NCBI RefSeq assembly: GCF_031081985.1
Contig: NZ_JARWSK010000001.1
Span: 124,001 to 188,000, forward strand
Reading direction: 5' to 3'
From: Komagataeibacter xylinus
GTDB taxonomy: Bacteria > Pseudomonadota > Alphaproteobacteria > Acetobacterales > Acetobacteraceae
DNA length: 64,000 nt
Of this stretch, positions 2 to 39,374 are shown piece after piece. A model generated the notes under the pieces. It was not told the DNA's origin. It saw only the letters and a program-made list of their open reading frames with translations, and did not search any database. Position 1 is the stretch's first letter; each line of letters starts with the position of its first letter. The translations under genes were made by a program, and so were the position numbers.

Positions 2-547
2 GAAACCCTGTGCGCGTGGGTTGGCACGTTGTTGCGCCATGGCAGTCTTGGCAATGATCTCATCATTTTGCATGCGGCATGGCAGGCTGGGGAGGATGAT
101 GGCCGCCTGCGCGAGATTGCCCGCTTTGCCTGCGCCTCTGCCGCCTCGCGCGAGCGCTATGAGGAGACGGTGTATCAGGGCGAGGCCTTTTTGCGCGCAG
201 CAGCGGTGTGGCATGTCGTGCCACCCAAGGCAGCGCTGGCGGGCACGCGCTGGCCGCTGCCGGTCGTGCAGGGGCTGGTGTTTCGGCGTGGCGGCGTGGC
301 TGCCCCGCAGGCCGTGCTGTCGGGCGGGTATGCGGCGGTGGCGGCCCTGGTGTCGGCTGCCGTGCGGCTGGTGCCGCTGGGCCAGACGGACGGGCTGCAC
401 GCGCTGGCCCGGCTTGAATCCGTGCTGGCGCAGGCCGCAGCGCAGGCTGCGCGCCAGACGCTGGATGATGTGGGCGGAGCCTGTTTTGCCGCCGACATCG
501 CCGCCATGCATCACGAAACCCAGGAAACGAGGTTGTTCAGAACATGA
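2..547 (+). CDS. ureF: Urease accessory protein UreF (5' end missing)
   Basis: C-terminal part of UreF, the chaperone that works with UreD and UreG to load nickel into apo-urease in the cytoplasm. The reading frame is open from base 2, before any start codon, so the gene begins upstream of the window; about 181 residues are visible against a usual length near 220. The family-like stretch [10 protein letters not shown] lies near the left edge and the rest is alanine-rich helix as expected for UreF. Its stop overlaps the ureG start by four bases, so the two are translationally coupled. The structural genes ureABC and ureE are presumably upstream, outside the window. Confidence 0.85.
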
Positions 548-1158
548 CAAAGCCAAAGCACGGCCCGCTGCGCGTGGGCATTGGCGGCCCGGTGGGCACG
601 GGCAAGACAGCACTGATGGATGCGCTGTGCCGCCGCTTTCGCAATGATTACAATATCGCCGCCATCACCAACGATATCTATACGCGTGAGGATGCCGAGT
701 TCCTGACCCGCGCGGGTTCGCTCCCGCCCGAGCGCATCATGGGCATCGAGACCGGTGGCTGCCCGCACACGGCCATACGCGAGGATGCCAGCATCAACCT
801 TGCCGGCATTGCGGAACTGACGGAGCGCTTTGCCGGGCTGGACCTCGTGCTGGTGGAAAGCGGGGGCGACAACCTTGCCGCGACCTTCAGCCCCGAACTG
901 GCTGACCTGACCATCTATGTCATTGATGTCTCGGCAGGCGACAAGATCCCGCGCAAGGGCGGCCCCGGCATTACGCGCAGCGACCTGCTGGTCATCAACA
1001 AGATCGACCTTGCCCCGCATGTGGGCGCAGACCTTGGGGTGATGGACCGTGACAGCAGGCGCATGCGCGGGCAGCGGCCCTTTGTGTTCGCCAATATCCG
1101 CGCGGGCGAGGGGGTGGAGGATATCGCCCGTTTCATTATCGAACAGGGTGGCCTGTAA
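544..1158 (+). CDS. ureG: Urease accessory GTPase UreG
   Basis: SIMIBI-class GTPase of 204 residues that couples GTP hydrolysis to nickel insertion into urease. The P-loop GGPVGTGKT is at residues 14-22, the nickel-binding Cys-Pro-His motif at C73/H75 inside [13 protein letters not shown], the switch region [17 protein letters not shown] follows, and the guanine-specificity motif NKID is near residue 150. Full length for the family. It starts in a four-base overlap with ureF and is followed about 35 bases later by a strong intrinsic terminator, so it closes the urease operon. Confidence 0.97.
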
Positions 1159-1223: not shown

Positions 1224-1395
1224 ATGTCTGTGCATCTGTGGCCACCATCGGGTGTATGTGCCGGAGCCTGCCATGGCGCCATGAATAAGCTCATAAATGG
1301 CCATTATAAGTAATTTCACGCATCCCGTCCTGATGGTGCAATTTCGTAATGTTTCCCTGTCGCCGGTCGGTGACCGCAGCCACAAGGGGATGTTC

Positions 1396-2592
1396 ATGAT
1401 TGCGCTTGTGTCCCGGTTCAGGATGAGCCGGAAGAAAAAGCTGCTGCGTTGCGGCAGTATCCTGTCGGCCTGCGTGGCGCTTGGCGCCAGCATGCCCCAT
1501 GCCCGCGCGGCCACCACGGTCAATTTTGGCAAGGATCAGTTCTTTACGCTGGGTCTGGGCGTGCGCGCGCAGTATCTGAGCCATGACACCACCATGCCCG
1601 GCAACAAGGATGCGGCAAGTGCCAGTGACCTGCGTATCTACATGGGCGCGCAGTTCCATAAATACGTCAAGTCAACGCTCAACCTCGAGCGCCTGCGCGA
1701 TGGCAACTGGAACGTGCTTGACGGCGTGCTGCAGGTCGAGCGGTGGAAGGCGTTCAATATCTGGGGCGGGCGCATGCTCACGCCAAGTGACCGTTCAAAC
1801 CTTGATGGGCCGTACTTCCTCAGCACCTATGCCTTTCCGATGGTGTCACAGTATCCGGGTGCATGGTCGGGCCGTGATGATGGCATCTCGGTATGGGGCA
1901 AGCTGCTCAAGGACCGTTTCCGTTATGTAGCGGGGGTCTATCGTGGGCATAACTGGGTGCACGGTGGCTCCAATTATGGCGAGCACCCGCTCTTTGCCGC
2001 GCGCATGGAATACAACTTCCTCGATCCCGAGCCGTCGCCCGCCTACTACACGGCCAGCACCTATTACGGCAAGGCTGACATCCTGGCCATTGGTCTTGCG
2101 GGCCAGTACGAGACCGATGGCGTGGGCACGGCGCAGGACAAGGGCGACTACAAGGCGTGGAATGTTGATGGCCTGTTTGAAAAGCGCATTGGCGAGGGCG
2201 CGAAATACGGCGTCTATACGCTCGAGGGAGCGTATTACCAGTATTATACCGGCGGCGTGAAGGACATCGCGGTAGGTTACGGCCAGCGCTCGACCGATTA
2301 CGGTAATGTGGGTGGCGTGAATGATGGCACGGCCTTCCTGGCCAGCACGGCGTATCTCATTCCCTACCGGGTGGGCTGGGGGCGCCTGCAGCCGCTGGTG
2401 CGTTACCAGCAGTTCCGCTTCAAAAAGGACATGTACGGCCCCGGCCACCCCAAGACCACCCAGCTTGATCTGGGGGGCAATTATGTCATGGATGGCCACA
2501 ACCTGCGCTTTACGTTCGATTACGTGCGCTACAAGCCCATGGGCACGCGCGCGGTGGGGGCTTTTTTGCTGGGCATGCAGTTCCAGTACTGA
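1396..2592 (+). CDS. Outer-membrane porin, possibly for urea/short amides
   Basis: Predicted beta-barrel porin of 398 residues. I chose ATG 1396 because AAGGGG lies six bases upstream; the frame is open back to 1297. The N-terminus has a basic stretch (MSRKKK), a hydrophobic core and a likely cleavage after ARA. The mature part has alternating aromatic/polar strands and ends in an aromatic residue (QFQY), the usual barrel-assembly signal. It lies between the urease operon and the urea transporter genes. This recalls FmdC, a porin found beside the amide/urea transporter genes fmdDEF of Methylophilus, so urea entry across the outer membrane is a reasonable inference. A general or phosphate-selective-type porin is the alternative. 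Confidence 0.75.
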   Translation: MIALVSRFRMSRKKKLLRCGSILSACVALGASMPHARAATTVNFGKDQFFTLGLGVRAQYLSHDTTMPGNKDAASASDLRIYMGAQFHKYVKSTLNLERLRDGNWNVLDGVLQVERWKAFNIWGGRMLTPSDRSNLDGPYFLSTYAFPMVSQYPGAWSGRDDGISVWGKLLKDRFRYVAGVYRGHNWVHGGSNYGEHPLFAARMEYNFLDPEPSPAYYTASTYYGKADILAIGLAGQYETDGVGTAQDKGDYKAWNVDGLFEKRIGEGAKYGVYTLEGAYYQYYTGGVKDIAVGYGQRSTDYGNVGGVNDGTAFLASTAYLIPYRVGWGRLQPLVRYQQFRFKKDMYGPGHPKTTQLDLGGNYVMDGHNLRFTFDYVRYKPMGTRAVGAFLLGMQFQY

Positions 2593-3163: not shown

Positions 3164-4057
3164 CTAGCGCTCCTGCAGCAGGCGCGATGCGGTGGCAGCG
3201 GCGGCGGCCCGCGTGCTCAGTCCGGTCTTGTTGTAGATCTGCTCGATATGCTTGTCGATCGTGCGCGGGCTAACTTGCAGAATATCGGCAATATCGCGGC
3301 TGGTCTTGCCGCGTGATATCCATAGCAGCACCTCCGCCTCGCGCGCGCTCAGGCCCAGCCTGTCTTGCAATATGCGCTGGGGGAAAAGCGGCTGGCGGCT
3401 GATGCGCAGCAGCAGTTCATCCGGGCCGCTCACGCCCACAAGGGTCAGCACAAGTTCGTTTTCACCTACATTATGGCGCATGAGCACGCCGCCGGGCGCA
3501 GGCAGGGGCGCGGGCAGGCGCAGGGTCGCGTCCGTGTCATTCGCACCTGAAAGCTCGCGCAGCACAAGTCCTGCCTGCGGCGTGGCCCACAGCACATCGC
3601 CCGCATGGCTGGTGGCCAGCAGGAAGCGGCCCGCATGGTCAAGCGCGCCATGTGCCGCGCGGATGCGCGCGGCGGATTCCATGCGCACGCCAATGCGGGC
3701 CATGACTTCCTCCAGCCGCAGGGGCTTGGTCACGTAATCGGCAGCACCTGCCTCAAAGGCGCGGATCACGTGCTCGGTCTCGGTCAGGCCGGTCATGAAG
3801 ATGATGGGCACAAGGCTCAGGCGCGGGTCATCATGAAGGGCCGCGCACACCTCCCACCCGTTCATGCCGGGCATGAGGGCATCGACCATGATCAGGTCGG
3901 GCAAGGTGCGCGCCACGACGGCAAGCGCTGCCATGCCGGACTGCGCCAGCAGCACCGTATAGCCGCCATCGGTCAGTTTCTCGTCCATCAGGCCCAGAAC
4001 GGCCGGGTCATCATCAATGACCAGAACGGATTTGCGGGATGGATCGGGCACGGTCAT
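3164..4057 (-). CDS. LuxR-type response regulator
   Basis: A 297-residue response regulator. The N-terminal receiver domain (about 10-130) has the acidic pair IDDD, the phospho-acceptor aspartate in MVDALMPGMNG and the conserved lysine in VTKPL. A variable middle follows, then a C-terminal LuxR/FixJ-type helix-turn-helix (LSAREAEVLLWISRGKTSRDIA, about 232-290). It overlaps the stop of the upstream permease-kinase gene by four bases, making that kinase its probable partner. By position it is the best candidate to control urtABCDE and perhaps the porin; a palindrome at 7430-7449 is a possible binding site. Confidence 0.92.
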   Translation of the reverse strand: MTVPDPSRKSVLVIDDDPAVLGLMDEKLTDGGYTVLLAQSGMAALAVVARTLPDLIMVDALMPGMNGWEVCAALHDDPRLSLVPIIFMTGLTETEHVIRAFEAGAADYVTKPLRLEEVMARIGVRMESAARIRAAHGALDHAGRFLLATSHAGDVLWATPQAGLVLRELSGANDTDATLRLPAPLPAPGGVLMRHNVGENELVLTLVGVSGPDELLLRISRQPLFPQRILQDRLGLSAREAEVLLWISRGKTSRDIADILQVSPRTIDKHIEQIYNKTGLSTRAAAAATASRLLQER

Positions 4058-7000
4058 GGCGTGGGTCGCTCCAAATGGTGACGCAGGGCTTCAAGCTGGT
4101 AGGACGCGGCAAGGGCCAGCAGCGGTTCGATTGCACCGCCAAGGGCCGGATGCTGGTCGCGCAGGGTGGTCAGGTGGGCGCGCAGGTTGCGCAGGTTGCC
4201 GCCATCAAGCAGGGCAAGCAGGGCCACGCGTTCCGCCTCGGGCAGGGTGGCGGGTGTGTCGGGCGGGGCAGGCTGCGTGCTGTCGTCCCCCTCGGCGGGA
4301 AAGATCCATTCAAGGTCAAGCATCTGGCCCATTTTGGTGACCAGGACCGACAGGTTCACCGGCTTGCCCAGCACGGGGCAGTCCTCAAGAGAGGGGACAT
4401 GGCGGTTAGCACTCTCCACGAGGTTGCCGGTCAGGAACATGATCGGCACGCGGGCATAAGGGGACTGGCGGATGCGCAGGGCAAGGTCACGCCCGTCCAT
4501 GCCCGGCATGGACAGGTCGAGCAGCAGCAGGTCAGGCTGCACCAGCGGCAGGCGGTCAAGGCATTCCGCCCCGCTTTCCGCGCCTTCAAAGGCAAAGCCG
4601 CAGCGTTCAAGGATTTCGCGCATGATCAGGCGGTGCTCGGCATTGTCATCCACCACCAGCACCGTGCGGCGTGGCCCTTCATACCCGGTGGGGAAGGCGG
4701 GCAGGCGCGGGGGCAGTTCCACCTGCCGGTCAGACAGTAACAGCCGCACCCTGAAGCGCGATCCCTTGCCCGGTGTGCTGGTGAAGGTCAGTTCGCCGCC
4801 CAGAATCTCGGTCAGCAGCCGGGTGATGGTCAGCCCCAGCCCGGTGCCGGGCACGCCCGCGCTAGCGCTCCCGCGCTCAAAGGGCTCGAAAATGCGGGCA
4901 TGATCTTCCGCCGCAATGCCGGGGCCGGTGTCTTCTATGATGAACTCCGCAATCTGCCCCTGCCACCTGGCCCCGAACGTGACCGTGCCCTGCCGGGTGA
5001 ACTTGACCGCGTTTGACAGCAGGTTGAGCAGGATCTGGCGCAGGCGGTGCTCATCGCACGTGACCACGGCGGGCAGGTAGCCCGGCCGCCATACCAGCTC
5101 CAGCCCGCGCGCCTGCGCCTGCGGGCGGATCATCTGGGCTACGGATTCCACAAAGGCGGGCAGGGCGATGGTATCGGCATGCAGTTCGATCCGCCCGGCC
5201 TCGATACGCGAGATGTCAAGCAGGCCGGAGAGGATGCTGGTGATGTGCTCGCCACTTTCGCGCATGATGCCCAGCGCCTGGTGGCGCTCGGGCGGCAGAC
5301 GCGTATCGTGCTGCAGCAACTGGATATAGCCCATGATGGCGTTGAGCGGAGAGCGGATCTCGTGGCTGATGCCGCTGATGTAGCGGGTCTTGGCCAGGCT
5401 TGCCGCCTCCGCCTTTTCACGGGCCAGCTTGAGAGCGTGGTCGGTGCGGCGGCGGGCGCGGATCTCGTTCATGAGCAGGCGGGTCTGGTGCAGGGTCTCG
5501 CGCGTGGCGGTGCGCCGCCCCTGCTGCGCCATGACCAGCAGCCACGCCCCCACCGTGCCCGCCAGGAAGACTGGCACCATGATGCCACTCCACGCATGGC
5601 CCGTTGTCCATGCCAGCAGCCCCATGCCCAGAATCATGCCCGCCAGCATGAGCGCAAAGCGCCCCGCAGGCGCTATGAGCCAGCGGCGCAGGCGCGGCGG
5701 CAGGGCGCGCAGCGGGGTGGCAAGCTGGCTGCCCATGCGGGTCGAGACCGGCTTGCAGCGGTCGCGGCAGCGCCCGTCGAGCGAGCAGCACAGCGAGCAG
5801 ATCGTGCCGCCATAGGCAGGGCAGGGCGCCATGTCCCGCGCCTCGAAGGTGTGTTCACAGATCACGCATGTCATGGCGGGCCGGTCGTTCCAGCCTGCGG
5901 GCTGGGGGCGGGCGAGATAGGTGCGCCCCCCGGTCAGCCACGCCAGAACAGGGGCCGCGGCAAAGGCTACCCCCAGCGTCAGGAAAGGCGCATAGGCCGC
6001 GGCCATCGGGCCGAGATAGCCCGCAAAGGCCGTAACGCCCGTGGCGGCGGCAATGCCCCACGCTCCCAGTCCCACGATGTTGAAGTCCGGCAGCAGCGCG
6101 CGCTTGAACTCGACCAGGGCCGGGCTGAGGCCAAGCGGCTTGCACAGCGCCACATCCCCCAGTATCGCGCCGATCCACGCACAGGCCAGAACGCCATATA
6201 GCGTGATGCCGGTCTGGATGGTGCTGACCAGTCCGGCCTCCATCAGCAGGAGTGCGATCATGACATTGAAGATGACATAGAACACCCGGCCCGGATGAGT
6301 GTGGGTCAGGCGCGAGAAGAAGTTCGACCACGCCAGTGATCCGGCATAGGCGTTGGTGATGTTGACCTTGACCTGCGCCAGCGCCACCAGCGCCATCGTC
6401 AGCACGGTCGCGACCGGTGCGGGGGTGAAACTGCCCCACGCAAAACGGTACATTACGCCGGGCTGCACCGCCTGCAGCGGCGAAAAGCCTGCCCGCAGCA
6501 CCACCCATGCCAGAAACGAGCCCGCCAGCAGCTTGAAGGCATCAAGCACGATCCAGCCCGGGCCGCCCAGCACCAGAGCTGCCCACCATTGCCGCCGGTT
6601 GCAACGCGTGGGGTCAGGCAGGAAGCGCAGGAAGTCGATCTGCTCCGCACTCTGGCACACCAGCACGATCATGAGCGATGCGCCGGTGCCTACGGCAAGG
6701 GGGTCGATATGCCCCGGTGGCCCGTAGGGCGCGCTGAAATGGGTCCACTGCCCCAGCAGTTCGGGGTGCAGGCCCGCCATTACCACGAGGGGGACGAGAT
6801 TGAGCGCCAGCCAGACCGGCTGTGTCGCGATCTGGAAACGGGCGATGAACGTGATGCCCCATGTCACCAGCGGAATGATGATGACCGCGCACAGCAGGTA
6901 CGCCAGCCACAGCTTCATGCCCAGCAGCCCATGTAGCGTGCCCGCCAGGATCGCCGCCTCGAGCCCGAAGAAGATGAAGGTGAAAATGGCATAGAGCAGC

Positions 7001-7371
7001 GAGGTGATGGTCGAGCCGATATAGCCAAAGCCGGTGCCGCGCGTGAGCAGGTCGATATCCAGCCCCGCGCGGGCAGCCGTGGCGCATAGCGGCAGGGTAA
7101 TGGCGAAGATGACCGCCGTGACAAGGGCTATGGCGGCTGCCGTGTTGGCAAAGCCGAAGGCCAGCGTGAGCGTGCCGCCCATGGCCTCGAGCGCCAGGAA
7201 CGAGATGGAGCCCAGCGCCGTGCGTGCTGCCCGCATGGGCGTGGCCATACGCGCGCTGCGCGCGGTAAAGCGCAGGGCGTAGTCCTCGAATGTCTGGTCG
7301 GCGGCCCAGCGGCTGTAGGCCCGGCGGGGGCGCACGATGCGCAGGCGGCTGGTCGGGTGTGGCAAGATCAC
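4054..7371 (-). CDS. NCS1 permease-hybrid histidine kinase fusion
   Basis: A 1105-residue transporter-sensor. Residues about 30-485 resemble the purine/cytosine permease (NCS1) family, with about twelve membrane segments and hallmarks such as RGTGFGYIGSTITSLLYA and VKVNITNAYAGSLAWSNFFS. Residues 502-539 hold eight cysteines (502, 505, 517, 525, 528, 529, 535, 539), probably a metal or iron-sulfur site. Two further membrane segments lie at about 571-613. HisKA has H670 (SHEIRSP), the ATPase domain has NLLSNAVKF, DTGPGIA and GTGLGL, and the receiver at 903-1010 has D952 and K1003. A helical tail follows. The start at 7371 is GTG. It is divergent from urtA and coupled to the response-regulator gene. 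Sensing urea or a related nitrogen compound is an inference. Confidence 0.9.
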   Translation of the reverse strand: MILPHPTSRLRIVRPRRAYSRWAADQTFEDYALRFTARSARMATPMRAARTALGSISFLALEAMGGTLTLAFGFANTAAAIALVTAVIFAITLPLCATAARAGLDIDLLTRGTGFGYIGSTITSLLYAIFTFIFFGLEAAILAGTLHGLLGMKLWLAYLLCAVIIIPLVTWGITFIARFQIATQPVWLALNLVPLVVMAGLHPELLGQWTHFSAPYGPPGHIDPLAVGTGASLMIVLVCQSAEQIDFLRFLPDPTRCNRRQWWAALVLGGPGWIVLDAFKLLAGSFLAWVVLRAGFSPLQAVQPGVMYRFAWGSFTPAPVATVLTMALVALAQVKVNITNAYAGSLAWSNFFSRLTHTHPGRVFYVIFNVMIALLLMEAGLVSTIQTGITLYGVLACAWIGAILGDVALCKPLGLSPALVEFKRALLPDFNIVGLGAWGIAAATGVTAFAGYLGPMAAAYAPFLTLGVAFAAAPVLAWLTGGRTYLARPQPAGWNDRPAMTCVICEHTFEARDMAPCPAYGGTICSLCCSLDGRCRDRCKPVSTRMGSQLATPLRALPPRLRRWLIAPAGRFALMLAGMILGMGLLAWTTGHAWSGIMVPVFLAGTVGAWLLVMAQQGRRTATRETLHQTRLLMNEIRARRRTDHALKLAREKAEAASLAKTRYISGISHEIRSPLNAIMGYIQLLQHDTRLPPERHQALGIMRESGEHITSILSGLLDISRIEAGRIELHADTIALPAFVESVAQMIRPQAQARGLELVWRPGYLPAVVTCDEHRLRQILLNLLSNAVKFTRQGTVTFGARWQGQIAEFIIEDTGPGIAAEDHARIFEPFERGSASAGVPGTGLGLTITRLLTEILGGELTFTSTPGKGSRFRVRLLLSDRQVELPPRLPAFPTGYEGPRRTVLVVDDNAEHRLIMREILERCGFAFEGAESGAECLDRLPLVQPDLLLLDLSMPGMDGRDLALRIRQSPYARVPIMFLTGNLVESANRHVPSLEDCPVLGKPVNLSVLVTKMGQMLDLEWIFPAEGDDSTQPAPPDTPATLPEAERVALLALLDGGNLRNLRAHLTTLRDQHPALGGAIEPLLALAASYQLEALRHHLERPTP

Positions 7372-7429: not shown

Positions 7430-7449
7430 CATACGCAGGAATGCGTATG
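7430..7449. promoter_or_regulatory. Perfect palindrome between sensor gene and urtA
   Basis: CATACGCA-GGAA-TGCGTATG, an 8-bp perfect inverted repeat with a 4-bp spacer, sits 55 bases before the urtA start in the 133-bp divergent region. The symmetry suits a dimeric activator. The LuxR-type regulator encoded next to the permease-kinase is the obvious candidate. No second copy was seen upstream of the porin. Confidence 0.5.
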
Positions 7450-7504
7450 GGAAGCGCTTTTATGTGCGCCGACAATGCAGGCAGCAGCAAAAGGACCATT
7501 CATC

Positions 7505-8845
7505 ATGCCCGTCACACTGCCTCACCTTTCCCGTCGCGCGTTCGGACGTCTCGCCCTTGCCTCATCGGCGGCTGCTGTGGGGGGCATGTGGCGCGCGGCG
7601 CCAGCGCGGGCGGCAGCGCCGAGCGGCGAGCCGATCAGGGTTGGCATCCTGCATTCGCTGTCCGGCACGATGGCCATCAGCGAGACCACGCTCAAGGATG
7701 CCATGCTGATGCTCATTGCCGAGCAGAACCGTAAGGGCGGGCTGCTTGGCCGCCCGCTTGAAGCCGTGGTGGTGGACCCTGCCTCGAACTGGCCGCTCTT
7801 TGCCGAGAAGGCGCGCCAGCTCCTGTCGGTGGACAAGGCATCGGCCGTGTTTGGCTGCTGGACCAGCGTTTCACGCAAATCGGTGCTGCCGGTATTCGAG
7901 GAACTCAACGGCATCCTGTTCTATCCCGTGCAGTATGAAGGCCAGGAGTGCAGCCGCAACATCTTCTACACTGGTGCGGCCCCCAACCAGCAGGCCATAC
8001 CGGCGGTGGACTACCTGCTGAGCGAGGATGGCGGCGGGGCGAAGCGTTTCGCGCTGGTGGGCACGGATTACGTCTATCCGCGCACGACCAACCAGATCCT
8101 GGTCAATTACCTCAAGGCCAAGGGCATTGCGGAAGCCGACATCATGGTCAACTACACGCCGTTCGGGCAGTCGGACTGGCAGACCATCGTCTCGCAGATC
8201 AAGACCTTCGGCTCGGCGGGCAGGAAAACCGCCGTGGTCTCGACCATCAATGGCGATGCCAACGTGCCGTTCTACAAGGAACTGGGCAATCAGGGCATCT
8301 CCGCCACCGACATCCCGGTCATGGCCTTCAGCGTGGGGGAAGAGGAACTGGCCGGCATGGATACCGCCCCGCTGGTGGGCCAGCTTGCCGCGTGGAACTA
8401 TTTCGAGAGCATCGACACCCCGGCCAATACCGCCTTCATCAAGCAGTGGCACGAATTCACAAAAAACCCCAAGCGCACCACCAATGACCCGATGGAGGCG
8501 CATTACATCGGCTTCAACATGTGGGTGCAGGCAGTGACCAAGGCAGGTACCACCGATCATGACAGGGTGATTGACGCCATGATCGGCATCCGCCAGCCCA
8601 ACCTGACCGGTGGCGTGGCCGAGATGCTGCCCGACCACCATCTGACCAAGCCGGTCTATATTGGCGAGATACAGGATGACGGGCAGTTCTCGGTGGTGTG
8701 GAAAACCCCGGCCCTCGTGCCCGGGCAGGCCTGGTCGCCGTGGGTGCCGGAAACGAAAAACCTGATTGGCGACTGGAGCAAGCCCATTGCCTGCGGCAAT
8801 TACAACACCGCCACCAAGACCTGCCTCGGGCACAGGCATGCGTAG
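7505..8845 (+). CDS. urtA: Urea ABC transporter substrate-binding protein UrtA
   Basis: A 446-residue periplasmic binding protein of the branched-chain amino acid/amide/urea type. ATG 7505 is preceded by AAAGGA at nine bases. The N-terminus carries a Tat-like signal (SRRAFGRLALASSAAA) with probable cleavage after ARA. The mature start EPIRVGILHSLSGTMAISE and the later motif FGCWTSVSRKSVLPVFEE are typical of UrtA. It is the first gene of urtABCDE and overlaps urtB by eight bases. Together these import urea at low concentration for urease. Confidence 0.95.
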   Translation: MPVTLPHLSRRAFGRLALASSAAAVGGMWRAAPARAAAPSGEPIRVGILHSLSGTMAISETTLKDAMLMLIAEQNRKGGLLGRPLEAVVVDPASNWPLFAEKARQLLSVDKASAVFGCWTSVSRKSVLPVFEELNGILFYPVQYEGQECSRNIFYTGAAPNQQAIPAVDYLLSEDGGGAKRFALVGTDYVYPRTTNQILVNYLKAKGIAEADIMVNYTPFGQSDWQTIVSQIKTFGSAGRKTAVVSTINGDANVPFYKELGNQGISATDIPVMAFSVGEEELAGMDTAPLVGQLAAWNYFESIDTPANTAFIKQWHEFTKNPKRTTNDPMEAHYIGFNMWVQAVTKAGTTDHDRVIDAMIGIRQPNLTGGVAEMLPDHHLTKPVYIGEIQDDGQFSVVWKTPALVPGQAWSPWVPETKNLIGDWSKPIACGNYNTATKTCLGHRHA

Positions 8846-10442
8846 GGTCAGCACCACCTGCCTGCTGGCGGCGCTATGGCTTGGGGTCATGCTGCTGCCG
8901 GGCCACGGCGCGCGGGCGGATGCCTTCGCTGATCTGGCCAGCCCGCAACTCGGGGCGGTGACGGCAGCGATTTCAACCCTTGCGGCATCGCCTGACCCGC
9001 AGGCAGGGGTGGCGTTGCAGGCGCTGGGCGAGCGGAACCTGTTCGCCGCCCCCGATGGCAGCGTGTATATCCGCCACGGCGAAAGTTACGTGGAGGCCCG
9101 CACGGGCCAGCCCCAGGCTTCCGTGCCGGAGGGGCTGAAGCCGATCCGTCTGAACAACCGCATCCGCACGGCACTTGCGGGCGTGCAGGCGGGCAGGGAC
9201 CTGCTCGCCCCCCAGCCCGCAACCCGGCTCAGGGCCGCCGATGCGCTTTACGCCCGCCACGACCCGGCCATGCTGCCGCTGGTGGAGCATGCCCTTGCGG
9301 TGGAAAAGGATGCCGCCGTGCGCACCCGGCTGACCGAGGTGCGGGCCGCGACCATTCTCGGCCAGCCTCCAGCCCCCGATGCGCTTGCCTCCCGGCTTGA
9401 GGCCGTGCGCGCGCTTGGTGCGGTTGGTGGCGCGCAGGCGCGTGGCATCCTTGCCGGTGTTGCCGGGTCGGATGCGGAAGCGCCAGCGCTGCGCCATGAG
9501 GCGCAGGCCGCCGTGTCGCGCATCGACTGGCACCTGCGCGCCTGGGGTGTGGCGCAGAATGCCTTTTATGGCCTGAGCTACGGCTCCGTGCTGCTGCTGG
9601 CCGCCACGGGGCTGGCCATCACCTTTGGCGTGATGGGCGTGATCAACATGGCCCATGGCGAGATGATGATGATCGGCGCCTACGTGACGTGGATGGTGCA
9701 GCAGGCCATCCGCGCCACCGTGCCCGCGCTGGAGCCGGTGGCGATCCTTGTGGCCATTCCGGTGGCGTTCGTGGTGTGCGGGGCGCTTGGCATCGTGATC
9801 GAGCGCGGGCTGATCCGCTTCCTGTATGGCCGCCCGCTTGAAACGCTTCTGGCCACATGGGGGCTGTCGCTCATCTTGCAGCAGGCGGTGCGTTCCATTT
9901 TCGGGCCGACCAACATCGCGGTGCAGACGCCGGGCTGGCTTTCCGGCTCGGTTGCAGTGGGCGGCATGGACATTACGCTCAACCGGCTGGCCATTCTGGT
10001 CTTTGCGGGGCTGGTGCTGGGCGGGCTGATGCTGGTGCTGCGCCACACGCCGTTGGGGCTGCAGATGCGTGCCGTAACCCAGAACCGCCGCATGGCGGCG
10101 CTGATGGGTATCCGCACGCCGCGGGTGGATGCGCTGGCCTTCGGGCTGGGTGCTGGCCTTGCGGGGCTTGCGGGCGTTGCGGTCAGCCAGATTGACAATG
10201 TCAGCCCCAATCTCGGGCAGTCCTACATCATCGACAGCTTCATGGTGGTGGTGTTTGGCGGGGTCGGCAATCTGTGGGGCACGCTGGCGGCCGCCCTTGC
10301 GCTGGGCATGGGCGGCAAGGTGCTGGAGCCTGCCATAGGCGCGGTCTCGGCCAAGATCGCCGTTCTCGTGCTGGTCATCCTTTACATCCAGCGCCATCCG
10401 CGCGGCATGTTTCCCGTGCGCGGGCGGGGAGTTGAATCATGA
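8838..10442 (+). CDS. urtB: Urea ABC transporter permease UrtB
   Basis: A 535-residue inner-membrane permease. It begins with a signal-like segment and about 210 residues of predicted periplasmic helical sequence, then a LivH-type permease domain from about residue 237 (INMAHGEMMMIGAY). The long N-terminal extension is normal for UrtB. ATG 8838 lies inside the last codons of urtA; the frame is open further upstream but that part is within urtA. It ends in a four-base overlap with urtC. Confidence 0.95.
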   Translation: MRRVSTTCLLAALWLGVMLLPGHGARADAFADLASPQLGAVTAAISTLAASPDPQAGVALQALGERNLFAAPDGSVYIRHGESYVEARTGQPQASVPEGLKPIRLNNRIRTALAGVQAGRDLLAPQPATRLRAADALYARHDPAMLPLVEHALAVEKDAAVRTRLTEVRAATILGQPPAPDALASRLEAVRALGAVGGAQARGILAGVAGSDAEAPALRHEAQAAVSRIDWHLRAWGVAQNAFYGLSYGSVLLLAATGLAITFGVMGVINMAHGEMMMIGAYVTWMVQQAIRATVPALEPVAILVAIPVAFVVCGALGIVIERGLIRFLYGRPLETLLATWGLSLILQQAVRSIFGPTNIAVQTPGWLSGSVAVGGMDITLNRLAILVFAGLVLGGLMLVLRHTPLGLQMRAVTQNRRMAALMGIRTPRVDALAFGLGAGLAGLAGVAVSQIDNVSPNLGQSYIIDSFMVVVFGGVGNLWGTLAAALALGMGGKVLEPAIGAVSAKIAVLVLVILYIQRHPRGMFPVRGRGVES

Positions 10443-11578
10443 ACCCGTTTTCAACCCATGCCCCGCGTTCCCTGCGTGGCGTGATCTGGATGGCAGCGGC
10501 CGTGGTGGCGGCGGCAGGCGGGCTGGCCGTGGCCAGCCTGCTGCCCGAGGGCAATCCGCTGCATGCCTCCGCCTTCGTGGTGTCGCTGGCGGGGAAATAC
10601 CTGTCCTATGCCATGCTGGCGCTGGCGGTGGATCTGGTATGGGGGTTTGCGGGCATCCTTACGCTGGGGCATGCTGCGTTCTTCGCGCTGGGGGGATATG
10701 CCATGGGCATGTACCTCATGCGCGAGATCGGAGCGCGGGGTGTTTATGGCAATGCCGACCTGCCGGATTTCATGATCTTCCTCTCATGGAAGAACCTGCC
10801 GTGGTACTGGTGGGGTTCGGAACATTTCGCTTGGGCCGCCGTGCTGGTGGTGGCGGTGCCGGGGCTGCTGGCTGGCGTGTTTGGCTGGCTTGCCTTCCGC
10901 TCGCGCGTGTCGGGGGTGTATCTGTCCATCATCACCCAGGCGCTGACCTACGCGCTCATGCTGGCGTTTTTCCAGAACGGGTTGGGCTTTGGCGGCAATA
11001 ACGGCCTGACCGACTTCAAGGACATCCTCGGCGCCGACCTGCATGCGCCGCTGACCCGCGCCGTGCTGCTGCTGGTGACCGGCCTGCTGCTGGCCGCAAG
11101 CCTGCTCGCCGCGCGTTTTGTGGTGGGCAGCCGCTTTGGCAGCCTGCTCGTGGCCGTGCGCGATGCCGAAAGCCGCACCCGCTTTCTGGGCTACCGCCCC
11201 GAGCAGGCCAAGTTGCTGGTGTGGGTGTTCTCGGCCATGATCGCGGGGGTGGGGGGCGCGCTGTATGTAACGCAGGTTGGCATCATCAACCCCGGTGAGT
11301 TCGCGCCCGCCAATTCCATCGAGTCCGTCATCTGGGTGGCGGTGGGTGGGCGTGGCACGCTGTGCGGCGCCGTGCTGGGGGCCATACTGGTCAATATGGG
11401 CAAGACGCTGTTCACCGCCTGGTTGCCGGAGTTCTGGCTGTACGGGCTGGGGCTGCTGTTCATCTGCACCACTTTGTTCCTGCCCAACGGGCTCATGGGG
11501 CTGTGGCGGCATGCCCGTAAGGCACCGCCGGAGGAAGTCACCCCCGAAGTGGCGGATACGCAGGGAGAAGAGGCATGA
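10439..11578 (+). CDS. urtC: Urea ABC transporter permease UrtC
   Basis: A 379-residue LivM-type permease, the second membrane subunit of the urea importer. It shows about ten hydrophobic segments and the family motifs YAMLALAVDLVWGFAGILTLGHAAFFALGGY and, near the C-terminus, a loop of the GGRGTLCGAVLGA type. It overlaps urtB at its start and urtD at its end by four bases each, so translation of the whole operon is tightly coupled. Confidence 0.95.
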   Translation: MNPFSTHAPRSLRGVIWMAAAVVAAAGGLAVASLLPEGNPLHASAFVVSLAGKYLSYAMLALAVDLVWGFAGILTLGHAAFFALGGYAMGMYLMREIGARGVYGNADLPDFMIFLSWKNLPWYWWGSEHFAWAAVLVVAVPGLLAGVFGWLAFRSRVSGVYLSIITQALTYALMLAFFQNGLGFGGNNGLTDFKDILGADLHAPLTRAVLLLVTGLLLAASLLAARFVVGSRFGSLLVAVRDAESRTRFLGYRPEQAKLLVWVFSAMIAGVGGALYVTQVGIINPGEFAPANSIESVIWVAVGGRGTLCGAVLGAILVNMGKTLFTAWLPEFWLYGLGLLFICTTLFLPNGLMGLWRHARKAPPEEVTPEVADTQGEEA

Positions 11579-12315
11579 CCGGTGACCTCGTGCTCGACAT
11601 GCGCGATGTGAGCGTGACGTTTGACGGCTTTCGCGCCATCAACAACCTCAGCCTTGCCCTGCGCCCGGGCGAGATGCGCGCCATCGTGGGCCCCAACGGC
11701 GCGGGCAAGACGACGATGATGGACATCATCACCGGCAAGACCCGGCCTGATACCGGCACCGTGCGCTTTCAGAACCATGACCTGACCCGGCTGGATGAAC
11801 CGGCCATTGCCCGGCTGGGCATTGGCCGCAAGTTCCAGAAGCCCACCGTGTTCGAGGCGCTGAGCGTGACAGAGAACCTGCTGCTGTCGCTCAAGGGCGT
11901 GCGCTCGCCCTTTGCCGTGCTCATGGCGCGCATGAACGCGCAGGAGCGCGAACGCATCGAGCACCTCCTGCGCCTGACCCGGCTGGAAGCTGTGGCCAAC
12001 CAGCCCGCAGGCGGCATGAGCCACGGCCAGAAGCAGTGGCTCGAGATCGGCATGCTCATGGGCCAGGAGCCTGAACTGCTTTTGGTGGATGAACCCGTGG
12101 CGGGCATGACCGATGCCGAGACCATGGCCACCGCCGACCTGCTGCGCGAGATCAACCGCACCCGCAGCGTGGTGGTGGTGGAGCATGACATGGATTTCGT
12201 GCGCGCCCTCGGCGTGGACGTGACGGTGCTGCACGAAGGCAGCGTGCTGGCTGAAGGCACACTGGATGCGGTCAGCGCCGACCCGCGCGTGATCGAGGTC
12301 TATCTTGGGCGCTGA
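11575..12315 (+). CDS. urtD: Urea ABC transporter ATPase UrtD
   Basis: A 246-residue LivG-type ATPase. Walker A is GPNGAGKTT, the signature region is GGMSHGQKQWLEIGML, which is characteristic of UrtD rather than a standard LSGGQ, and Walker B is LLLVDEP. The switch histidine is in VVVVEHDMDF. It forms the cytoplasmic ATPase pair with UrtE and starts in an overlap with urtC. Confidence 0.95.
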   Translation: MTGDLVLDMRDVSVTFDGFRAINNLSLALRPGEMRAIVGPNGAGKTTMMDIITGKTRPDTGTVRFQNHDLTRLDEPAIARLGIGRKFQKPTVFEALSVTENLLLSLKGVRSPFAVLMARMNAQERERIEHLLRLTRLEAVANQPAGGMSHGQKQWLEIGMLMGQEPELLLVDEPVAGMTDAETMATADLLREINRTRSVVVVEHDMDFVRALGVDVTVLHEGSVLAEGTLDAVSADPRVIEVYLGR

Positions 12316-12350: not shown

Positions 12351-13046
12351 ATGCTCGAGGTTAACGACGTGCACCTGCATTATGGCGCGGCGATTGCCCT
12401 GCGTGGGGTCTCGCTTGCCGCAAGGGCAGGGGCCGTGACATGCGTGCTCGGCCGCAATGGCGTGGGCAAGACCAGCCTGATCCGCGCCATAACCGGCATG
12501 CATGCCACAAGCGCTGGCACGATCATGTGGGAGGGCGAAGATATTACCCGGCTTGCAGCCTATGACCGCGCCCGGCGCGGCATTGCCACCGTGCCGCAGG
12601 GGCGCGACATCTTTCCGCTGCTCAGCGTGCGCGAAAATCTTGAAACCGGCTTCGGCCTGCTGCCGCGCGGGCAGCGCCGGGTGCCGGACGAGATATTCGA
12701 CCTGTTTCCCGTGCTGGCAAAAATGCGCGACCGGCGCGGCGGCGACCTGTCGGGCGGCCAGCAGCAGCAGCTTGCCATTGCGCGCGCGCTGGTCATCCGC
12801 CCGCGCCTGCTGGTGCTTGATGAACCGACCGAGGGCATCCAGCCCAGCATCATCAAGGATATCGGCACCATCATCGGCATGCTGCGCGACCGGGGCGACA
12901 TGGCCATCGTGCTGGTGGAGCAGTATTTCGATTTTGCCTATGAACTGGCGGACACAATTGCCGTGCTCGACCGGGGCAAGGTGGTGCTGGCAGGCCAGGC
13001 CCGCGACCTCGTGGCGGAGGATGTGCGCGCCTACATCACCATCTGA
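12351..13046 (+). CDS. urtE: Urea ABC transporter ATPase UrtE
   Basis: A 231-residue LivF-type ATPase, the second ATP-hydrolysing subunit of the urea importer. Walker A is GRNGVGKTS, the signature LSGGQQQQ, Walker B LLVLDEP with the catalytic glutamate, and the switch histidine position is replaced by glutamine (LVEQYFDFA), as is usual in UrtE/LivF. A strong ribosome-binding site (GAAGGGAGG) precedes ATG 12351, the only urt gene not overlapping its predecessor. Confidence 0.95.
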   Translation: MLEVNDVHLHYGAAIALRGVSLAARAGAVTCVLGRNGVGKTSLIRAITGMHATSAGTIMWEGEDITRLAAYDRARRGIATVPQGRDIFPLLSVRENLETGFGLLPRGQRRVPDEIFDLFPVLAKMRDRRGGDLSGGQQQQLAIARALVIRPRLLVLDEPTEGIQPSIIKDIGTIIGMLRDRGDMAIVLVEQYFDFAYELADTIAVLDRGKVVLAGQARDLVAEDVRAYITI

Positions 13047-30765: not shown

Positions 30766-33700
30766 TCATGTCGCGGCCTGCGGTGGTGGCCCGAGGGTCA
30801 CGGCCACGATATGGGTCACGCCATCATCCACCATCCCGATCGGGTCGGTGGCGGGCAGGTCCGCGCCATCAAGCACGACATGGCGCACGCCCGTGCTGAC
30901 ATGCGCGGGGTTGCTGACCGTTATGGCATAGGTTGCGGTGCGCCAGCGCAGCCGCGCCGTGAATTCGGGCCATCCGGGCGGAATGCATGGGTTAACGACC
31001 AGCGTCGTGCCCAGCACGCGCAGGCCAAGCAGGCTTTCCACGCCCACGCGCTGCATCCACCCGGCTGAGCCGGTGTACCACGACCAGCCACCGCGCCCCA
31101 CATGCGGCGGGCGGGAATAGACGTCGGCTGCGACAACATAGGGTTCCAGCCGGTAGCGTCCGGCGGCCTCGGGGGTCAGGCTGTGGTTGATGGGGTTGAT
31201 GATGTGCAGCAGGGCATGCGCCTGCGCCCCGTCGCCCAGGGCTGCGAAGGCCATGACAGTCCACAGGGCGGCATGGGTGTACTGGCCGCCATTTTCGCGT
31301 ATGCCCGGCGGGTAGCCACGAATATAGCCCGGATCCGGGCCGATGGTGTCAAAAGGCGGGGCAAGCACCAGCACCAGTCCTTCATCGGCGCGTACCAGCA
31401 ACTTACGCACCGAGCGCATGGCGTGGGCCACCCGGTCAGGCGCACCGACGCCAGACAGCACCGACCATGACTGTGATATGGCATCAATCTGGCATTCCGC
31501 GCTGGTATGTGACCCTAGTGGCGTGCCGTCATCAAAATAGGCGCGCAGGTACCAGTCGCCATCCCAAGTGGCCTCGAGTGCGGTGGCGAGGGCCTGCCTG
31601 TGCGCCTCCCACGCCTGCGCGCGGGCGTGCTCGCCCCGGCTGCGCGCCAGCGGAATGAAGCTGCCTAGGGCTGCGTGCAGGAACCAGCCCAGCCACACGC
31701 TCTCACCCCGGCCATGCTCGCCCACGCGGTTCATGCCGTCGTTCCAGTCACCCGTGCCCATCAGCGGCAGGCCGTGCGCGCCCGTGGCCAGCGCCTGATC
31801 GAGCGCGCGGGCACAGTGCTCGAACAGCGTGCCCGTTTGCGATGAGACCGCCGGGACCATGAAGCGGTCATGTTCTTCCAGCGGCAGGGGCGGCGCTTCG
31901 AGGAAGGGGATGATCTCGTCAAGCACCCCGCCGTCGCCCGTCGTGCTGACATAATGCGCCACCGTATGGGCCAGCCAGGCCCGGTCATCGGAGATATGGG
32001 TGCGCACGCCCGCGCCGGTCAGCGGCAGCCACCAGTGCTGCACGTCGCCCTCCACGAACTGGCGGCTGGCCGCGCGCAAAAGGTGGGCGCGCACGGCTGC
32101 GGGGCGGCACAGCGCCAGCGCCATGCCATCTTGCAACTGGTCGCGAAAGCCGTAGGCCCCGCTGGCCTGATAGAAGCCCGCCCGCGCCCACACCCGGCTG
32201 GCTAGGGTCTGGTACAGCAGCCAGCCATTGAGCATGATGTCGAGCGCGCGGTCGGGCGTACTGACCTGTATGGAGCCGGTCACCTGCTCCCACGCGCTGG
32301 TTGCGGCTTCAAGCACGGCATCAAGGTTGGCCGTGCGGTAGTGGGTGATGAGGCGGCGGGCGTCGGCCTCGTTTTCCCCTTCACCGAGCAAAAAGACGAT
32401 CTCCACACGGCCTCCCGGTGGCACGGTGGCCATGGTCTGCACCACGCCACACGGGTCCAGCCCCGCGCCTGTGCGGCCCTGCACGCCGTTGGGGCGGGTG
32501 AAGGCGGCTGGGTTTTCCACGCTGCCGTTGCGTCCGATGAAGGCCGTGCGATCGCCTGAACTGGCACTGAGGTAGCCGCCCATATCAACAAACGCGACCC
32601 GGCCTGCATATTCCGCCTGCCAGCGATTGCGCGCGAACAGCGCACCCGTCTCGCCATCGCGTTCGGTCAGGATGAAGGGTGCGGCCTTGCTGCGCGCGGG
32701 GCCAAGCACCCATTCCACATAGGCCGTAACCGACAGGGTGCGCGGCTGGGCGGAGAGGTTGCGCAACTGTATGCGCGTGATCTTGACCGGGTCCGTGGGT
32801 GGCACGTACTGCAACAGCGTGCTGGCAATGCCGTGGGCCACACGGTCCTGGCATGTGTAGCCACGTCCGTGGCGGGTGACGTAGGTTGCCGCCGCGTCGC
32901 GCCGTGTCGCGGCACTCGGGCACCACAGCGTGCCGCTGTTCTCGTCGCGCAGGTAGATGATCTCGCCGCAATGGTCGCTGACCGGGTCGTTCGACCACGG
33001 CGTAAGCTGGTGCTCGCGGCTGTTGCCCCACCAGGTATGGCCGCTGCCTTCCGCCGTGACCTGAAAGCCGAATGTCTCGTTGGTGATGATGTTGACCCAC
33101 GGCGCGGGCGTGGTCTGGCCGGGGGCAAGCACGATCACGTATTCGCGCCCGTCCTGTGCAAATCCGCCATGCCCGTTGAAGAATTCAAGCGCGGGCACGG
33201 GCGGCACGGCAAAGGCGGTGGCGGGCTGGCGCGGCATGGCGCGCGCGGGAAGGCCGGGGCGTGCCTGCGCACCATCGGCGCGGTCAAGCTGTTCGGCCAG
33301 CCCCTGGCCTGCCACCAGCACCACGCGCGCGACCGACAGGATCAGGTCCAGCACCACGGGCGCGACGAGATCGGCACGCAGCACGCGCACCGAACCCGCC
33401 GTGCTGGCCGTGCGCAGTGTGGCATGCACCATCTGGTCGAGTGCTACCTGCAGGTCCTGCATGTAGGAGGATGGATGTTCGTTGAGAATGACAAGATCCA
33501 CCGCCACCTGCTTGAGGCGCAGATATTCCTGCGCCACGAGCAGGTGACGCACCACAGCCGTGTCATCGGCGGCCCTGATGCGCAGCACGAGCAGCGGCAG
33601 GTCGCCTGAAATGCCCTGCCCCCACAGCAGTGGCTGCGGCCCGGCGCCGCGGGCAATGGTCGTGGCATCGGCCCGCAGGGCGGGGCCTGCGTAAAGGATG

Positions 33701-36700
33701 TGGGCGGCAAGGCGCTGGAACAGGTCCGCCGTGGCGGGGCTGATGTCGAGATGGCGCAACTGCACCTGTGCCTGCGTCCAGGCCAGCGTGCGCACGCGCG
33801 TGAAGGCCGTGGCATCCTGATGGGTGTCGATCATGTCCAGCAGGGCGGCGCGGGTGGGGGCGGCCATGGTCCACACCGTGAGGCGGGCCACCGCGCCGGG
33901 GCGGATGGAGAGCGTGGTGCGGATGGCAAAGGCCGGGTCGAGCACCGTGCCGGTCGCACCCGACAGGCGCGCATGCGCATTCAAGGCGGCAGGGTCATGC
34001 ACATCGTGGCGGCGGCCGATAAAGCGGGCGCGGTCGGTTTCCACCTCGACCGCGCTGTCGCACACTACCATCTGCGCCACCCATATCCCGGCTTCCTCGG
34101 GCGCGCGCCTGCGGCGGGTGGCGATCAGCGCGCGGGCTTCAGGCAGGTATTCGGTCTGCACGAACAGTTTGGTGAAGGCCGGGTGCGCCAGGTCCGCGTT
34201 CTGCCCCAGCAGGGCCAGTTCGCTGTAGCTGGTGACCTCGATCTCCATCGTCTCGCTGCCTGCGTTGTAGAGTGAAAGCTGGCGGGTCTCGGCGTCATCC
34301 TCGGCGGAGACCAGTATTTCCAGCGTCGTGGTCAGGTTGGCGTCGCGGCGGGCGAACTCGGCGCGATCTTCATGAAAGGCCACGCCATATTCATCCGGCT
34401 GTGCTGCACAGGGCTGTGCCGTGGCCGACCATACCCGGCCCGTGCCCCGGTCGCGCAGGTAGATGTACTGGCCGTATTCATCGCATGTCACGTCCTCGCG
34501 CCAGCGCGTGACGGCATGGTCGAGCCAGCGGCTGTAGCCTGAGCCTGCCGCCGTGAGCATGACCGTGTACCGTCCGTTGGAAAGCAGGTGGGTGACCGGC
34601 TGCACCGTGTCGGCCCGGTCAAGGTAACGGCCCGCGGGCGTTGTAACGGGTGGGGCGGGAGCCTTGCTGTCATCTTCGAGTGGCAGGGGGCGGGCTACGG
34701 CGCCCCTGCGCGGTGCACGTTCCTGCAGCAGCAGTTCGGCCGAGGCCATGAGCGGATCATCATGAAAGCGCGTGCGCATGATGCCGCCCATGAGTGTATC
34801 GGCCACTGCAAGGATCGACATGCCCTGATGGTGCGCCATATAGGCCCGGATGATGGCGACAGGGCTGCGGTCCGGCACGCGGCCGGGCGTGTAGTCGAGG
34901 GATTCATAAAACCCGTACCGGCCCAGCGCGCCGGTTTTTTCCAGCACGTACAGGTTGGCCACCGCCTTTTGCGGGTCGACCATGGCGGCAAGCGCCGTGG
35001 CGTAGGGGGCCACGACCCGGTCAAGCCCCAGCCCGCGCTTGAGCCCCAGCCCCGGCACGCCAAAGTTGGAATACTGGTAGGTATATTCCAGATCACGCAC
35101 GTTATAGGCGGATTCCGATATGCCCCATGGCAGGCCGCGCGCCTGCCCGTAGGCGATCTGGCGCTGCACGATCAGCGTATTGGTCTGCTCGAGCAGGCTG
35201 CCCATGGGCGCGCGCATGACCAGCGAGGGCATGAGATATTCAAACATCGACCCCGACCACAACACCAGCGCCGCCCCGTTGCCCACCGGCGTGATGGAGC
35301 GGCCAAGGCGGAACCAGTCCTGGGCGGGCATGTCGCCCTTGGCGATGGCGAAAAACACCGCCAGCCGCGCCTCCGAGGCCAGCAGGTCGTAGCAGTTTGT
35401 ATCCTGCGTGTCCTCCGCCACGAGGTAGCCGATCGAGAGCAGCTTGCGCGCCGGGTCGCACAGGAACCTGAAATCCATCTCCTGCGCCATGTGCCGCGCC
35501 GCCTGCGCGAGGGCGACAAGGCGCGGGGCAAGGGTTGCGTGCAGGCCTTGGTCAAGGTCGCGCGCGTGGCTCTCCAGCGTGCGCAGGGGCGCCGCGATCC
35601 AGAACAGCGGGTCGGCTGCACTGTCAGGCGCGGTGTCGGGCAGGTTGCTGTACAGCACGGCAGCATGATCGACCGTGGCCTGCGCCTGGCGGCGCAGGCG
35701 GGTGAGTTCGGCGGTCGATCGGGCTGCTGTGTCGGACAGGATGGCGTTTTTCAGCCCCGTGAGCAGGCGCAGCAACTGCCGTTCGGGGGCGCTATGGTTG
35801 CGGCGCGCGCCATTGCTGAAGGTGAGATCGGCCATGGCGATGTTGAGCGCATCGGTCATGCCCGCGCGCCACGGGTCGGTTTCCGGCCCGCGTTCAGCCC
35901 AGCGCTGGCACGCGCTGGCCAGCGCGATGAGGTGACCGGCCATGTTGCCGCTATCCACGCTCGACACATAGGCAGGGTCAAGCGGGCGCAGGTCATCGGT
36001 TGCATACCAGTTGTAAAAATGCCCCCGGTAGCGCGGCATGCGCGCCAGGGTGGCGAAGGTCGCCTCCAGCCGGGCTACGGTATCGGCCAGTCCGGTCCAG
36101 CCAAAGTCACGCGCGCTGATGGTGCATAGCAGGTAGAGGCCGATATTGGTGGGCGAGGTGCGGCGCGCCAGGAGAGGGGCAGGGTCTTCCTGAAAATTGT
36201 CAGGGGGCAGCATGTTGTCGGCGGGGGTGACATAGGTCTCGAAAAAGCGCCATGTGCGCCGCGCGGTCATGCGCAGGGCGCGGATATCGGTGCGCGAGGG
36301 GCGCGAGCGCGCGGCAATGACCGGCGTGCGGCTGGCCCACATGGCAATGGCGGGCGAAAGCCCCCACAGCACCGCCACCGGCACGCACATGAACAGGCTC
36401 CACGGCGCCCACAGGCATGTGGCAAGCGTGATGCCACCTGCCAGAACCGGCCCGGACAGCATATGCCCGTAATACCCCGCAAGGCCGGGGCGCATGCGGT
36501 CGGTCAACTGGTCGGCCGGCACCCATTGCAGCATGTGCCGCCTCGTTATGAACACGCGCACCATCGTGCGCCCGATCGCATCGGCCATGAACCATGCCTG
36601 GTGGGCAAGGAAGGTGATGTTGAGGAAGGTCATCACCCCCGCCTCGGCGCTGGCAGCGCCGAGCACGCTGAAATAGCTGCGCAGCGTGATCCATTCCCGC

Positions 36701-39321: not shown

Positions 39322-39374
39322 GTCATGCTCCAGCCGGAGCGCGTGGCAGGCAACCGCCACGCGCTCGCGTGTTT

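Follow-up and report, generated by a model that had tools for sequence, protein, structure and literature searches.

An NCS1-type transporter-kinase with an eight-cysteine linker, predicted to sense urea or small amides, beside the urea transport genes of Komagataeibacter xylinus

Several described bacterial signalling systems carry a transporter domain and a histidine kinase in one protein. In CrbS/CrbR a transporter fold, a small linker domain and a hybrid kinase act with a LuxR-type partner, and an imperfect palindrome in the target promoters is reported to be needed for activation by that partner (PMC5715377). CbrA is likewise a single-chain transporter-kinase, or "transceptor" (PMC13022988), while Ks-Amt5, an Amt-histidine kinase, is described as a nitrogen-compound carrier domain recruited as a kinase sensor (PMC5764959). 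Here we analyse a gene of comparable design in a 64,000-nucleotide stretch of Komagataeibacter xylinus DNA (contig NZ_JARWSK010000001.1, positions 124,001 to 188,000; the whole stretch is called the window), in which an NCS1-type domain, an eight-cysteine (Cys8) module and a hybrid histidine kinase form a single chain divergent from urtABCDE. The reading that we prefer, with a probability of roughly 0.7, is that this protein is a transceptor that senses urea or a small amide and switches on urtABCDE through a partner regulator and a palindrome, as judged from sequence.

The likeness to CrbS/CrbR extends to the mode of working, as a LuxR-type partner and a palindromic target site are also found here, but it does not amount to membership: an NCS1 fold, Cys8 and urea/amide genes stand here in place of SLC5, STAC and acetate genes. 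CbrA, with its SLC5-STAC-PAS-histidine kinase order, differs in carrier family, in possessing STAC and PAS domains, and in having histidine as its ligand. Neither the SSF carrier domain, which would point to SLC5 membership, nor the STAC family is among the Pfam matches listed for the window kinase and its relatives, the STAC model not having been compared directly. Ks-Amt5 has an Amt fold and ammonium as ligand, and its abstract mentions no cysteine module (PMC5764959). Structurally, the N-terminal domain is closest to Mhp1 and CodB, and it also has profile kinship to the NCS1 family; unlike the window protein, Mhp1 and CodB have no kinase, and the sodium-site and sandwich residues of Mhp1 differ, as does the match to PF02133, which fails here. 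The genes that the kinase system faces belong to UrtABCDE or FmdDEF-type amide-urea ABC transport with the formamidase FmdA; the fmd genes of Methylophilus encode such FmdDEF-type transport and FmdA.

The kinase gene (4054..7371, minus strand) is an open, intact reading frame of 1105 residues with a GTG start, and the order of parts claimed in the earlier note, from an NCS1-like domain through two helices to HisKA, ATPase and receiver, is confirmed by the reading frame, Pfam and AlphaFold2. AlphaFold2 and hydropathy give a polytopic domain up to residue ~480, the NCS1-fold part covering residues ~45-480 (5932..7239; like all parts of the gene, on the minus strand). It is followed by the Cys8 module at residues 502-539 (5755..5868; C-x2-C-x11-C-x7-C-x2-C-C-x5-C-x3-C) and by two extra transmembrane helices predicted by hydropathy and AlphaFold2 at residues ~568-620 (5512..5670). 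Pfam then places HisKA at residues 660-726 (5194..5394), HATPase_c at 773-879 (4735..5055) and a Response_reg receiver at 904-1012 (4336..4662). The phospho-acceptor H670 of HisKA is present in 54/54 alignment rows and D952 of the receiver in 53/54, with one gap, while N783, N787, D814, G816, G842, G844 and G846 are each present in all 54; with these domains and catalytic residues the protein is a hybrid histidine kinase.

The first 600 residues of the window kinase match no Pfam family at E<=10, including PF02133, which is also absent among the 25 families listed, out of 27, for 49 relatives at that threshold, and a sequence search in the PDB gave nothing useful for the N-terminus. As these searches were uninformative, structure and profile comparison were used instead. 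Foldseek with the full-length model returned kinases only among the 50 matches listed, so the 600 N-terminal residues were modelled separately with AlphaFold2 (predicted local distance difference test score 84, predicted template modelling score 0.85). The best matches of this model are Mhp1 (4d1a, E 1.1e-9) and CodB (7qoa, template modelling score 0.80 on the target), which is the NCS1 variant of the LeuT fold, with SLC5, APC and Nramp carriers ranking below. Alignment of the family profile with 28 NCS1 permeases of related genomes by hhalign gave 97.4% over 404 colinear columns, against 2.5% for a reversed profile and 0.3% for an SLC5/SSF set of 14 proteins. A kinase-free protein, L136, bridges the two groups, matching the family profile at 1.6e-50 and PF02133 above the cut-off. 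Because Foldseek, the profile-profile alignment and the bridging protein agree, the N-terminus is, on model and profile evidence, a distant NCS1-type domain, and the label "NCS1-like" given in the earlier note was right although PF02133 is unmatched.

To map the pocket, the family-to-NCS1 alignment was chained with an NCS1-to-Mhp1 alignment, at ~20% identity. Mhp1 Q121 and N318 then correspond to E138 and N340, both in 49/49 rows, and the Mhp1 residue S312 (or T313, depending on a one-residue gap) to K335, which is lysine in 49/49 rows and arginine in L018, L021 and L136, which are more distantly related. W117 and W220 of Mhp1 correspond to F134 (41 F, 8 L) and L237 (47 L, 2 M). We take S312/T313 to belong to the sodium site of Mhp1 and W117/W220 to be the tryptophans that sandwich hydantoin; neither set is kept in the window protein. 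Since an invariant lysine sits at the sodium site, the domain is probably sodium-independent, its sodium coupling lost, and replacement of the aromatic sandwich suggests a pocket that would fit a ligand smaller than a nucleobase or hydantoin.

The eight cysteines lie at residues 502, 505, 517, 525, 528, 529, 535 and 539, exactly where the earlier note had put them. Their conservation was followed in 80 related loci, the closest of at least 587, which are spread over alpha-, beta- and gammaproteobacteria with a single cyanobacterium and include two identical copies in one Acetobacter genome. All eight are found with unchanged 38-residue spacing in 79/80 of these loci, and several D, P, Y, I, S and L positions of the module are likewise invariant. 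The exception is L050 (the same locus as L015, from a Rhodospirillales metagenome-assembled genome), where an in-frame TGA, either a sequencing error or decay, occurs ~180 codons in and before the module. Read across these sequences, the conservation is not chance. In the models the module forms a knuckle, a beta hairpin (514-517 and 522-525) and a helix that starts from the second CxxC (526-531), and DSSP assignment gives this treble-clef/RING-like layout with a CxxC at both ends. Weak matches were obtained to the Rhp7 treble clef (1.6e-4, 2/37 rows), to Prok-RING (0.09, 3/37) and, in the PDB, to zinc-finger (C2H2) knuckles and RNF113A. The earlier note had left the choice between zinc and an iron-sulfur cluster open; the predicted fold makes zinc the likelier and iron-sulfur the less likely of the two.

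Relatives that have no kinase bear on how the module is built and where it came from. The permease L019 keeps cysteines 1, 2, 4 and 5 and lacks exactly 3, 6, 7 and 8, a single case in which 7 and 8 are gone since the protein ends there; this loss and the predicted fold suggest two separate four-cysteine metal sites, in what is likely a double zinc module. L019, also recorded as L139 (genome G031), ends just past the second CxxC. Two other kinase-free permeases have all eight cysteines, one in Acidiphilium rubrum (571 residues, L088:14301-16016) and one on the Methylovirgula plasmid pHY1 (549 residues, L193:14682-16331). Both immediately follow a kinase/regulator pair and are likely dedicated urea/amide carriers. 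When 51 chosen rows were placed in a tree with L136 as root, these two permeases branched outside all kinase-fused forms (kinase-clade support 85/94). This suggests that the carrier already had the module when it acquired the kinase; the rooting is unsure, as the long root branch joins at L019. No other protein type with the module was found among the 36 matches listed from 249 Pseudomonadota genomes, whose frames span 894-1247 residues. A further search (P0002) matched 26 of 385 alphaproteobacterial genomes, with 25 frames of 1109-1243 residues and one of 281, and as it matched almost only long frames, more kinase-free Cys8 permeases must be rare.

The kinase gene is closely tied to a regulator and to urea transport. 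A LuxR/NarL-type response regulator (receiver and GerE by Pfam; 3164..4057, minus strand) overlaps the kinase stop by four bases. With tblastn the 80 loci gave matches to the kinase in 80, UrtA in 73, UrtB in 71, NicT in 3 and the regulator in 79; as some of the 79 are receiver-only matches, the safer figure is the 73/80 loci with a full-length regulator adjoining the kinase. Among the other seven, the frames of L050, L065 and L067 end early or late, that of L104 is 2.6 kb off, and no full-length match was found in L069, L070 and L096. In the window urtA (7475..8845, start from sequence reading; TIGR03407), urtB (8766..10442, the true start probably within the frame; TIGR03409), urtC (10439..11578; TIGR03408), urtD (11575..12315; TIGR03411) and urtE (12351..13046; TIGR03410) are all on the plus strand, divergent from the kinase gene, and all five subunits score above curated NCBIfam cut-offs. 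The link to urt genes that the earlier note proposed to look for recurs, with UrtA divergent from the kinase in 73/80 loci and less than 1 kb away in 67/80. UrtA-like proteins of ~38% identity were considered as a different transporter, a view dropped when the two tested both scored above the UrtA cut-off.

Other genes of urea and amide use keep the same company. FmdA formamidase is found in 49/80 loci, and representative proteins beside the operons score above the cut-offs for formamidase (NF045496), aliphatic amidase and UrtA. Plasmid pBVIE02 of Burkholderia vietnamiensis G4 carries the kinase and regulator with a HAAT transporter, formamidase, FmdB and a nitrilase-type protein, and the annotated plasmid pHY1 shows the same kinase/formamidase linkage. 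Linkage to ure genes, also raised in the earlier note, holds as co-occurrence: urease alpha is present in 49/52 genomes that carry the family versus 96/346 others (odds ratio 42, uncorrected for phylogeny or genome size), and 19 of 57 kinase copies lie <=20 kb from ureC, the 57 being what is left of 59 rows once L136, a match without the cysteines, and the second fragment of a match that was split are set aside. In the host genome ureC is ~2 kb to the left of the window (G000:C9:121656-122009).

The gap between kinase and urtA in the window contains a perfect dyad (7431..7448, no strand assigned), with core ATACGCAGGAATGCGTAT and the arms ATACGCA-GGAA-TGCGTAT, and this is the only exact site in the window. 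When ATACG-N8-CGTAT was sought with <=1 mismatch, the stretches upstream of the kinase (35,688 bases in all) yielded 68 sites, spread over 61/80 loci, versus 29 in 1,548,588 bases elsewhere, where the pattern is ~100-fold rarer; exact sites numbered 40 and 4. Upstream of the kinase, spacers of 5, 6, 7, 9, 10 and 11 gave none and five control palindromes gave 0, 0, 0, 0 and 2. The pattern was first noticed in some of the same loci, and the count is hence not a blind test. The sites comprise 43 different sequences, whose commonest column letters read ATACGTCA-AA-TGACGTAT. A site lies <=400 bp from UrtA in 63/73 UrtA loci and before FmdA itself in 8/49 FmdA loci; of the 29 sites found elsewhere, 12 stand in front of formamidase, UrtA or UrtC, leaving 17 that do not. 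Among the 12 are those of three Rhizobium loci, where kinase and urtA are 2.2 kb apart and the site stands before urtA. Of the 30 kinase loci in a second set, in which some species may overlap the first, 21 had the site (20/27 when fewer starts were recognised). Exact sites in the genomes of three relatives of the window's genus number 1, 2 and 1, and each genome has one of these between kinase and urtA; the additional copy in the second genome (G014:C16:67453-67470) lies away from the kinase. We predict from the conserved motif and its counts that the palindrome is the operator of the partner LuxR-type regulator.

In the mechanism that we propose, the NCS1-fold domain would bind urea or a small amide, for instance formamide or acetamide, and binding, or a change in carrier state, would pass through a cytoplasmic double-metal module, most likely holding zinc, and the two-helix hairpin to the kinase. 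H670 would then be phosphorylated and the phosphate handed to D952 and/or the partner LuxR-type regulator, which may bind the ATACGTCA-NN-TGACGTAT palindrome and turn urtABCDE on; in other species it may also activate formamidase and amidase genes. Activation, rather than repression, is assumed because the parallel CrbS/CrbR system needs its palindrome for activation. The link between the kinase and urea uptake is well supported by gene order. Of the nitrogen-compound sensor proposed in the earlier note, the tie to urea uptake stands with this linkage, and the input is widened to short-chain amides because formamidase occurs in 49/80 loci and aliphatic amidase in some; urea and small amides are more likely inputs than purines, hydantoin or allantoin.

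Three other explanations were weighed. That the N-terminal domain still transports urea or amides while also signalling, and is not a receptor without transport, is possible and the least doubtful of the three: in Acidiphilium and Methylovirgula, kinase-free Cys8 relatives are neighbours of the kinase and of formamidase, and CbrA is reported with both transport and kinase activities (PMC7096432), but the lysine at the Mhp1 sodium site (K335, 49/49; arginine in three distant relatives) does not favour it, and Ks-Amt5 is reported to bind its ligand without translocating it (PMC5764959). A kinase that answers to a product such as ammonium or to the general nitrogen state, instead of to urea or amides themselves, could also account for linked genes that all supply ammonia, and the ammonium transporter-kinase Ks-Amt5 (PMC5764959) provides a precedent; we think it improbable, given how few exact palindromes the three genus relatives contain. 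NCS1 carriers, moreover, are generally known to move amide-type ring compounds, not ammonium.

The remaining alternative, put forward in the earlier note, is that the cysteines form a metal or redox sensor that reports nickel, iron or iron-sulfur state as a second input. The invariance of the eight cysteines in the carrier-kinase linker would suit such a role, as would the nickel permease gene after urtE in the window and the urease nearby. It is nevertheless unlikely, since a NicT match occurs in 3/80 loci, the secondary structure and the weak Rhp7, Prok-RING, RNF113A and C2H2 knuckle matches point to zinc, and the module is also found on permeases that have no kinase. The NicT count likewise led us to reject the window's nickel permease as a member of the system.

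Several observations count against the urea/amide transceptor proposed here. No upstream site with <=1 mismatch is found in 19/80 loci (eight have a site with two mismatches), in 9/30 loci of the second set, or in the 10 cyanobacterial loci read out of 11. At one mismatch genome-wide, a backwards-read control is commoner than the pattern in 9/10 genomes, so that only exact matches discriminate at this scale. UrtA is unmatched in 7/80 loci: in L050, L061 and L102 upstream sequence is short or absent and L088 has formamidase and the site, while L082, L096 and L104 have neither UrtA, FmdA nor the site; the best UrtA matches of L060 and L085 are 7.5 and 8.6 kb off. No regulator was found inside 10 kb of the kinase in the cyanobacterial L096. 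The 80 loci are weighted towards close relatives and Bradyrhizobium, the urease association carries the lack of correction noted above, and the pocket assignments depend on a distant alignment.

The family is a transporter-kinase of known design, and its NCS1-Cys8 type, for which the open-licence papers searched gave genome annotation only, falls outside the SLC5/STAC and Amt carrier classes. We also put forward, tentatively and at slightly worse than even odds, that it forms a third class of transporter-kinase, a urea/short-chain-amide receptor in which a sodium-independent NCS1 fold is combined with a double-zinc Cys8 element that once gated the carrier and was re-used as a signal coupler. 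A regulator of this kind for UrtABCDE/FmdDEF-type transport is undescribed in the open-licence literature searched, where no study of an NCS1-kinase or of such a urea-sensing two-component system was found either, which is weak evidence of absence. One genome paper annotates an apparently similar locus with a hybrid kinase, a LuxR-family regulator, a second urtABCDE and, at the next locus-tag number, fmdA, and the part of it consulted makes no comment on the sensor (PMC13296017). Public annotations name the proteins "ATP-binding protein", "hybrid sensor histidine kinase", "response regulator" or ArcB. To our knowledge the detection of external urea or formamide by bacteria is poorly defined, and the family offers a concrete predicted receptor, partner and DNA site for it. 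It would also provide a second, structurally unrelated coupling of a LeuT-fold carrier to a kinase for comparison with SLC5/STAC, through a compact cysteine-rich linker that should purify easily.

The family is present in 52/398 Pseudomonadota genomes sampled, about one in eight species, and 10/194 sampled cyanobacterial genomes match it; the nearest named relative of the N-terminal part of the window kinase is from Komagataeibacter melaceti (87%). Two alphaproteobacterial proteins (L137 and L138) and the cyanobacterial L096 have the NCS1-Cys8-two helices-kinase order with the receiver absent by sequence reading, and the cyanobacterial NCS1-Cys8-kinase proteins (L096, L153-L163) occupy frames of 963-1072 residues. 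Kinase matches occur in 523 plasmid records, of which 342 are from Klebsiella, and no kinase relative was found in the viral contigs searched. In L195 (Klebsiella pneumoniae, NZ_CP065173.1 64011-85609) a kinase relative, urtABCDE and formamidase are carried on a conjugative IncFIB/IncFII plasmid, with a one-mismatch palindrome between kinase and urtA.

The rest of the neighbourhood is less distinctive. A UreG-like GTPase (544..1158, plus strand; PF02492) is probably the right end of a urease cluster, and between it and the regulator lies a porin-like protein (1297-2592, plus strand) that matches the NCBIfam ExtI porin below the cut-off and is perhaps a urea/amide porin. The NicO-type nickel permease gene after urtE scores above the Pfam cut-off and below those of NCBIfam. 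Further along, at 30766-39360 on the minus strand, is a 2864-residue protein with glucoamylase and GH94 domains, of an ordinary cyclic beta-1,2-glucan synthase type.

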